From Flavobacterium urocaniciphilum (GTDB taxonomy: Bacteria; Bacteroidota; Bacteroidia; Flavobacteriales; Flavobacteriaceae): 64,000 nt of DNA. The stretch lies in assembly GCF_900110615.1 (NCBI RefSeq), contig NZ_FOEI01000001.1, positions 558,001 to 622,000 of the forward strand, written 5' to 3'. This document shows positions 17,191-18,926 of the stretch, piece after piece. How positions within the stretch are numbered: the first letter of the stretch is position 1; each line of letters begins with the position of its first letter. The translations under genes were made by a program, and so were the position numbers. The notes beneath the pieces were generated by a model. That model was not told the DNA's origin, made no database searches, and saw nothing but the letters and a program-made list of their open reading frames with translations.

Positions 17191-17856
17191 TTATAAGTCT
17201 AATTCAAATGTTTGTCTAAATAATTCTATTGTAGGATTTAACTCCTTAAAATGTTTGTATTTTTCTTCGTTGGTATAAATTACTTTTGGTTTGTAGGTTT
17301 CAATAACCGTAATTTTTATTTTGATATCGTAATTTCGAAGGTTCGTTTTTAAATAACTTAATAAGTCTGAATTGGTATTTTCAAAATCTTCTTTAGAACC
17401 TTCGTTTGGGAATTCTAACAAAATATTCGTTCCCATTAATATAGGTTTACTCAATCGCATATAACTAGCGAAAAGTTTTCGACCTTTATTTTCTAAAATT
17501 TCGATATAATCGTTCCAATGTTTTACGGCATCTTCTTGAGTGAAAGGATCTGCTAAATGTTCACCAACTGGTAAATGCTCAACTTTGGATTGATTAGAAA
17601 TTTCTGCTTTTTGTTTTAATCCTTTAATTGAAAGCGAAGAAACTCTTTTGCTTAAATCGATTGCAGGAGTAGGCTTTTGTTGGATTTGTTCGATTTTTGT
17701 TTCAACTTCAATTTTTGGTTCAACTTGTTGAATAGTTTCAGTTGTTACTGTTTCTGTAACTGAATTAGAAATTATTTCGGGTTGAATTGAAGGTGTTACA
17801 GACTGAATTTCTTTTCCTTTTTGAAAGAAATTAGAAGGTATTATAAAGTATTTAGC
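17191..17856 (-). CDS. dnaX: dnaX tau-specific C-terminal segment, -1 frame (221 codons)
   Basis: Directly after the A10 run the -1 reading frame is open without a stop from GCT (17856-17854) to TAA at 17191. Joined to the upstream frame it gives a 578-residue protein, the usual size of a tau subunit. It starts AKYFIIPSNFFQKGKEIQSV, goes through a low-complexity linker rich in T, E, Q and P (about 60 residues), then a folded-looking part (DPFTQEDAVKHWNDYIEIL, KLFASYMRLSKPILMGTNIL) ending FRQTFELDL. By analogy tau binds polymerase alpha and DnaB. It has no convincing start of its own (first ATG at 17460 is mid-domain), so recoding, or an assembly error in the run, must link the two parts. Confidence 0.78.
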   Translation of the reverse strand, partial: AKYFIIPSNFFQKGKEIQSVTPSIQPEIISNSVTETVTTETIQQVEPKIEVETKIEQIQQKPTPAIDLSKRVSSLSIKGLKQKAEISNQSKVEHLPVGEHLADPFTQEDAVKHWNDYIEILENKGRKLFASYMRLSKPILMGTNILLEFPNEGSKEDFENTNSDLLSYLKTNLRNYDIKIKITVIETYKPKVIYTNEEKYKHFKELNPTIELFRQTFELDL

Positions 17857-18926
17857 TTTTTTTTTTCGGCATCATGTGTTAATGAAGCCAATTGCATAAG
17901 TGTTAATTCAACAAATAATCGTTGATTTTGACTTACTTTATATTTTAAATCACATTCGTTTGCGATTTCAATTCCTGCTAATAAAAACTCTTGAGATGCT
18001 TTTTGAGCTTGAACTAAAAATTGTTGTTGTGTTTGTTCGCTAACTTCTAAAAGTGAAAGAGTAGCAGGGTTTTTACAAACTAATAAATCTCTAAAATGAG
18101 AAGCTAAACCAGCAATAAAATGATGTCCGTCAAATCCTTTTGCTAAAATATCATTATAGGTTAACAGTAATTCTGGAATATTATTCTCCAAAATTAAATC
18201 GGTTACCTTAATGTAGTAATCGTAATCTAAAACGTTTAAGTTTTCAGCAACAGCCTGACGTGTTAAGTTATTTCCACAATAAGAAACTACACGGTCAAAA
18301 ATTGATAAGGCATCACGCATGGCACCATCAGCTTTTTGAGAAATGATACGTAACGCTTCTTCTTCGAACTGCACATTTTGATTTTGTGCAATATCCATAA
18401 GATATTCTTTCGTGTCATTAATCGTAATTCTTTTGAAATCGAAAATTTGACAGCGAGATAAAATAGTTGGAAGAATTTTGTGTTTTTCCGTAGTAGCTAA
18501 AATGAAAATAGCATGCTTTGGTGGTTCTTCTAAAGTTTTCAAAAACGCATTAAATGCAGAAGTTGAAAGCATGTGAACCTCGTCAATTATATAAACTTTA
18601 TATTTTCCTGTTTGTGGTGGGATTCGAACTTGATCGATAATACTTCTGATATCATCTACACCATTATTAGAGGCAGCATCTAGTTCGAAAACATTGAAAG
18701 AAAAATCTTCATTCGGATCATCATAACCTTCTTGATTAATTTTTCTAGCTAAGATTCTAGCACAAGTAGTTTTACCTACACCACGTGGTCCTGTAAAAAG
18801 TAAAGCTTGTGCTAAATGATTATTTTCAATGGCATGTAATAAAGTATTTGTAATAGCCTGTTGCCCAATTACATCTTTAAATGTTTGGGGTCTGTATTTA
18901 CGGGCTGATACTATAAATTGTTCCAT
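17841..18926 (-). CDS. dnaX: DNA polymerase III subunit gamma (zero-frame dnaX product, 361 aa)
   Basis: Clamp-loader AAA+ ATPase of the replicase. Motifs: MEQFIVSARKYRPQTFKDVIGQ, Walker A GPRGVGKTT, Walker B YIIDEVHMLS, sensor 1 LATTEKHKI, SRC motif LSRCQIF, sensor 2 GAMRDALSIFD. Compared with E. coli, the four-cysteine zinc module after Walker A is absent (short ARKINQEGYDDPNEDF linker instead). The zero frame stops after the lysine run, four codons (LNTL) past the slippery A10, just after the collar domain, which is where gamma ends in other bacteria. The promoter at 18943-18974 is strong. Confidence 0.95.
   Translation of the reverse strand: MEQFIVSARKYRPQTFKDVIGQQAITNTLLHAIENNHLAQALLFTGPRGVGKTTCARILARKINQEGYDDPNEDFSFNVFELDAASNNGVDDIRSIIDQVRIPPQTGKYKVYIIDEVHMLSTSAFNAFLKTLEEPPKHAIFILATTEKHKILPTILSRCQIFDFKRITINDTKEYLMDIAQNQNVQFEEEALRIISQKADGAMRDALSIFDRVVSYCGNNLTRQAVAENLNVLDYDYYIKVTDLILENNIPELLLTYNDILAKGFDGHHFIAGLASHFRDLLVCKNPATLSLLEVSEQTQQQFLVQAQKASQEFLLAGIEIANECDLKYKVSQNQRLFVELTLMQLASLTHDAEKKKLNTL
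17856..17867 (-). other. dnaX slippery site: A10 run with A AAA AAG heptamer
   Basis: On the minus strand the codons are GAA AAA AAA AAG, ten consecutive A residues. The zero-frame heptamer A AAA AAG is the same as the E. coli dnaX -1 frameshift site, and a run of this kind also resembles the A9 of Thermus dnaX, which works by transcriptional slippage. No strong downstream stem-loop or upstream Shine-Dalgarno stimulator is visible. Confidence 0.75.

Follow-up and report, generated by a model that had tools for sequence, protein, structure and literature searches.

Layout of the dnaX locus

The window analyzed here, a stretch of 64,000 nucleotides from the genome of Flavobacterium urocaniciphilum (2.85 Mb in 23 contigs), carries on its minus strand a dnaX gene that is divided between two reading frames by a run of ten adenines, A10 (Table 1). 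The minus-strand junction reads GCC GAA AAA AAA AAG CTA AAT ACT TTA TAA. In the zero frame the AAA+ ATPase, lid and collar domains are followed by the C-terminus EKKKLNTL and a stop, giving a product of the size of a gamma subunit, while the -1 frame is free of stops across 17191-17865, up to the TAA at 17191-17193, and would complete a tau subunit of 578 amino acids (354 + 3 + 221). Past the run, the zero frame ends after CTA AAT ACT TTA and the third frame after a single codon. A preliminary description of this DNA had reported ten adenines in GAA AAA AAA AAG, a zero frame closing four codons on after 361 residues, a -1 frame open for 221 codons to 17191 with a 578-residue tau, and the heptamer A_AAA_AAG of E. 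coli; our reading bears this out, and the heptamer lies in phase.

Table 1. Features of the dnaX locus in the window, together with further A10 runs that lie in frame elsewhere in the genome.
Feature	Position	Strand	Basis or remark
dnaX zero frame, gamma-sized, 361 aa	17841..18926	-	ORF list and translation
A10 run, codons GAA AAA AAA AAG	17857..17866	-	sequence read
Zero-frame TAA terminating gamma	17841..17843	-	inside the tau-frame codons ATA ATA (Ile-Ile)
tau-specific tail, -1 frame, 221 codons + TAA	17191..17856	-	open-frame reading
L285, in-frame A10 in intact ORF	G000:C9:139349		TlpA-like protein, named by eye from sequence
L301, in-frame A10 in intact ORF	G000:C15:485809		LysM protein, named by eye from sequence
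L305, in-frame A10 in intact short ORF	G000:C15:859085

The 361-residue product matches the Pfam families DNA_pol3_delta2, DNAX_ATPase_lid and DNA_pol3_gamma3 and the NCBIfam model TIGR02397 (dnaX_nterm, 391 bits), whereas the tail alone finds no match in Pfam. Both are recognized by a single NCBIfam DnaX model of 614 positions, NF011531, of which the zero-frame product covers 1-370 and the -1 tail 410-613 (E 1.1e-20), so that the two frames represent two parts of one protein family. Compared with three relatives, the tail shows dN of 0.14-0.15 and dS of 0.86-0.94, with differences commonest at third codon positions. Purifying selection thus acts on the tail as read in the -1 frame; a decaying tail is ruled out by the dN/dS values together with the NF011531 match.

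Conservation within the genus Flavobacterium

A match to dnaX was present in 60 of 61 genomes of the genus, the host's own included. The open frame in these rows extends over 361-401 codons in 58 cases, 236 codons in a partial match (G003) and 609 codons in G035. Among 30 genus loci that were read, 29 have the codons GAA AAA AAA AAG and a tail open in the -1 frame, and the remaining one, L031 of G035, retains A10 and has tau in the zero frame. The analysis was extended to 97 distinct genus-level sites, 63 of which (from 80 loci) were assigned by a DnaX similarity of 82-97% and not by record title, a few of them being MAGs that carry other genus names. Here tau lies in the -1 frame in 92, in the zero frame in four (the state seen in F. 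paronense) and in the +1 frame in one, Flavobacterium sp. H122, with a run of A12.

In 95 of the 97 sites the run itself is exactly A10; one of the remaining sites has A11 and one A12. In the alignment of these relatives the three consecutive codons GAA AAA AAA are each invariant (97/97) and AAG follows in 95, as compared with 13 other conserved lysine columns of dnaX in which AAA accounts for 77-99% of rows. At the gamma-default sites of the genus, as listed, the zero frame is closed within 5 codons. No relative in the genus combines a continuous frame with the loss of the run, as the four with a continuous frame keep A10 or A11. These tau-default genes are L031/L247, L236, L243 and L252; in L031, L236 and L243 the run is still A10, and the alteration sits in its flank.

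The preliminary description had held a homopolymer error to be the main alternative to a functional split. Homopolymers are error-prone, and run lengths from A9 to A14 do occur among relatives, as would also be in line with phase variation of the run at the DNA level. Nevertheless, the same split and run recur in 92 of the 97 distinct sites, in isolates as well as MAGs, including F. difficile KDG-16 (L188), the closest named relative by DnaX with 97% identity. A homopolymer error in the window gene is thereby excluded, and an origin of the split in sequencing, assembly or phase variation is altogether improbable. By this comparison of sequences, the frame split is a conserved feature and not a sequencing error.

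Run length and reading phase across the Bacteroidota

For a wider survey, 311 loci were sampled from Flavobacteriaceae, other families of the class and a few other classes, and were reduced to 289 distinct stretches that differ over the run and 60 nt on either side. The run of each locus was taken as the longest A stretch in the 420 nt past the conserved part, and homologue counts refer to the matches listed. A run of A9 or longer is found in 276 of the 289 sites and is exactly A10 in 243; among the others, four have A6-A7 and nine have none, and A8 does not occur. Within 12 genomes from other classes the run is present in 8 and absent in 4. Setting aside L102, where the contig ends ten bases past the run, tau is in the zero frame at 128 of the run-bearing sites, in the -1 frame at 140 and in the +1 frame at 7. 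Note that the shares of gamma-default genera are biased, as among the matches listed the split rows were all read and the unsplit rows only partly. Among these matches, tau in the zero frame is the state in most other genera of Flavobacteriaceae. Groups vary in the codon phase of the run as well as in the residues that it encodes, so that what is conserved is the stretch of nucleotides and not a particular peptide. Of the seven +1 sites, five have runs longer than A10, for which a homopolymer miscall is possible; only L085 and L122 are exactly A10.

Several loci depart from this pattern. The dnaX genes of L110, L116, L132, L146, L154, L156, L313, L315, L316 and L317 are without a long run (none, or A6-A7), and lineages of this kind seem to have lost the run or never to have had it. 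L114 and L182 are tau-default with only A7 and near stops in both other frames, making them candidates for ribosomal, not transcriptional, shifting. In L163 (G476:C1, from another family of Bacteroidia) dnaX is split, with a tau frame open for 206 codons and no A run; it may be a pseudogene, use a shift site of a different type or reflect faulty assembly.

Closure of the frames beyond the run

Beyond the run, a single frame continues for about 200 codons, and stops soon follow in the remaining two. The non-tau frames are both closed within 6 codons at 96/97 genus-level, 81/86 family and 80/93 other sites, as compared with 17, 20 and 13%, respectively, at control positions upstream in the same genes; these and the following counts come from related rows and are hence not independent. 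The third frame alone is closed within 6 codons at 91/92 gamma-default sites of the genus (expected 49.7), 65/70 tau-default sites of the family (29.3) and, elsewhere, at 49/55 tau-default (20.0) and 29/36 gamma-default sites (16.9). In Flavobacteriaceae one of the stops sits in conserved Ile-Ile codons, a peptide that the group from other families does not have. Ribosomal shifting by -1 leaves the closure of the third frame unexplained, as it needs only one stop.

Transcriptional versus ribosomal shifting

With a probability of about 0.75 we consider that programmed transcriptional realignment on A10 enables this dnaX gene to provide both clamp-loader subunits. RNA polymerase would slip on the run and produce messages with 9, 10, 11 or more adenines. 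Those with ten (and +3n) would be read to the TAA four codons on and yield gamma with 361 residues, while those with eleven (and those with eight) would lead into the tail frame and yield tau with 578 residues. Messages with nine would enter the third frame, stop after one codon and give rise to another gamma-like protein. The slip at the RNA polymerase and its efficiency, as well as the production and use of both proteins, are what we infer from the DNA.

Several lines of evidence favor transcriptional slippage. The long run, tau frames displaced in either direction and the closure of both other frames are all seen; 276 of the 289 sites reach at least A9 and A8 is missing, though a ribosomal heptamer needs just seven bases. 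For Antonov et al. (PMC3711429), mixed direction among orthologs is a sign of transcriptional realignment. In addition, the sequences have no consensus structure, the window gene has no Shine-Dalgarno (SD)-like motif, and the tail shows purifying selection.

The most serious alternative is programmed -1 ribosomal frameshifting at A_AAA_AAG or A_AAA_AAA, by which tau would be the frameshift product and the roles known from E. coli would be reversed. The heptamer is present, and a search with RF00005 plus ARAGORN, in which 150 of 322 first-look candidates were scored, gave 41 tRNA matches in the genome, with tRNA-Lys represented only by the UUU anticodon, in two copies. A shift is thus possible. 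Sites proposed for tRNA-Lys by an earlier pattern search were discarded, as these places hold no tRNA. In E. coli the sole tRNA-Lys, UUU, reads both AAA and AAG, according to Atkins et al. (2016; PMC5009743). The motif GGAG abuts the run in 93/97 genus-level, 57/86 family and 1/93 other sites, and its near constancy in the genus speaks for ribosomal shifting, as does the prevalence of -1 over +1 sites (140 vs 7). The motif is, however, missing next to the run in the window gene and its near relatives L004, L188 and L193 as well as in nearly all sites outside the family, and none of GGAG, GAGG, AGGA and AAGG occurs in the 20 nt before the window run. Since the anti-SD sequence matters little in F. 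johnsoniae (PMC8710568), we infer that the conserved GGAG merely encodes Gly-Glu.

The preliminary description had seen no clear stem-loop stimulator, and none emerged here: the consensus RNA structure contains 0 pairs in 16 sequences, and the fold at the window's own dnaX site is weak (z -1.58), with 10 of 200 shuffles folding equally well. We therefore reject a conserved stem-loop. A ribosomal shift would, moreover, leave the +1 genes, the lower limit of nine adenines and the closed third frame without explanation, and we regard it as unlikely. A combination, in which the mixture stems mostly from polymerase slippage, with ribosomes slipping on A_AAA_AAG as well, is permitted by the sequences of the genus, but its second step is needed by no evidence, and we hold it to be considerably less likely still.

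Counting against transcriptional slippage are the excess of -1 over +1 sites, the possible miscalls among the +1 runs longer than A10, the GGAG that abuts the run throughout most of the genus, and the three other intact ORFs with an in-frame A10 in the same genome (Table 1). In all, the locus is a conserved recoding site, probably of transcriptional nature. The leaning toward transcriptional slippage in the preliminary description thus holds as the best-supported reading, although A_AAA_AAG and tRNA-Lys UUU leave room for the ribosomal route.

Changes of the default product

On a family protein tree built from 126 rows, of which 40 represent genus-level sites (out of the 97) and 86 are others, the three-state label requires at least 18 changes and the distinction of gamma versus tau at least 17, as compared with a mean of 40.5 for shuffled gamma/tau labels. 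Over 40 FastTree bootstraps these values range from 16 to 20 and from 13 to 19, respectively. When only the 114 rows with A10 are considered, which sets aside possible homopolymer miscalls, 8-12 changes remain over the 40 bootstraps; this again argues against sequencing error or phase variation of the run as the source of the split. Zero-frame, -1 and +1 states are all present inside one genus.

On balance, we lean toward the view that the frame of dnaX behind the run is nearly free to drift in Bacteroidota, as in an essential gene that is agnostic to frame, where slippage on A9-A10 would always sample all three frames. With all frames sampled and both wrong frames stopping at once, an indel near the run would alter the supply of either subunit little. 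The variants point to an almost neutral DNA frame in an essential gene wherever the polymerase slips dependably.

Relation to known dnaX systems

In Thermus thermophilus, slippage on dnaX was reportedly described by Larsen et al. in 2000. As described in PMC5009743 and PMC1088944, Thermus dnaX has a run of at least nine adenines with near stops in both other frames and supplies gamma and tau from one gene. The arrangement in the window is alike in all of these respects, but the zero frame encodes tau in T. thermophilus and gamma here, and slippage was measured there and is deduced here. Escherichia coli dnaX shares with the window gene the A_AAA_AAG heptamer, a tRNA-Lys found only with the UUU anticodon, and the products gamma and tau (PMC5009743, PMC3711429); it differs in that the window gene has ten adenines, no SD-like stimulator or conserved stem-loop, and a zero frame that is not that of tau.

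The closest counterpart is the gamma-default or 'two ORF' dnaX of Antonov et al. (2013; PMC3711429), who report 17 dnaX genes, spread over 12 genera, that require a -1 shift to yield tau; nine have A10, and the authors infer transcriptional realignment. The zero-frame gamma, the tau reached by -1, the A10 and the conserved transition are common to that set and the window gene, and Flavobacterium may be among the nine A10 species. A gamma-default A10 dnaX is thus a known arrangement, described in that work, and the reversed logic relative to E. coli that the preliminary description had pointed out is real but not new. That set consists of -1 cases throughout, in contrast to the Bacteroidota studied here, where the run is phylum-wide, relatives with zero-frame and +1 tau occur and the third frame is closed. 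What the present analysis adds is the extent of the run through the phylum, the switching of phase and the closure of the third frame, none of which was found in the literature searched; for phase switching of dnaX across Bacteroidota, no account was found in that literature, from whose scope most subscription-journal papers fell out.

What appears to be a replication gene broken by a frameshift carries a conserved expression signal, where plain annotation yields a 361-residue protein or a frameshift error. Work on whether polymerase or ribosome gives rise to the two forms of DnaX has centered on E. coli and Thermus. As naturally occurring genes of every phase are available in Bacteroidota, some within one genus, the mechanism and the required ratio of gamma to tau become directly testable.

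A runs in other reading frames of the genome

The window contains 52 ORFs of at least 150 amino acids, a mechanical list that was not checked for genes, and long A runs are scarce in them as compared with synonymous shuffles: five runs of A8 or longer were counted against 21.7 expected, one of A9 or longer against 9.0, and one of A10 or longer, that of dnaX, against 4.8. Such scarcity is what one would expect were slippage harmful at other places. The genome as a whole has 34 distinct runs of at least A10 (counted by hand from 44 positions). In-frame A10 runs are not confined to dnaX, contrary to what had been supposed, as three other intact ORFs, L285, L301 and L305, have one (Table 1); slippage would truncate part of their products.
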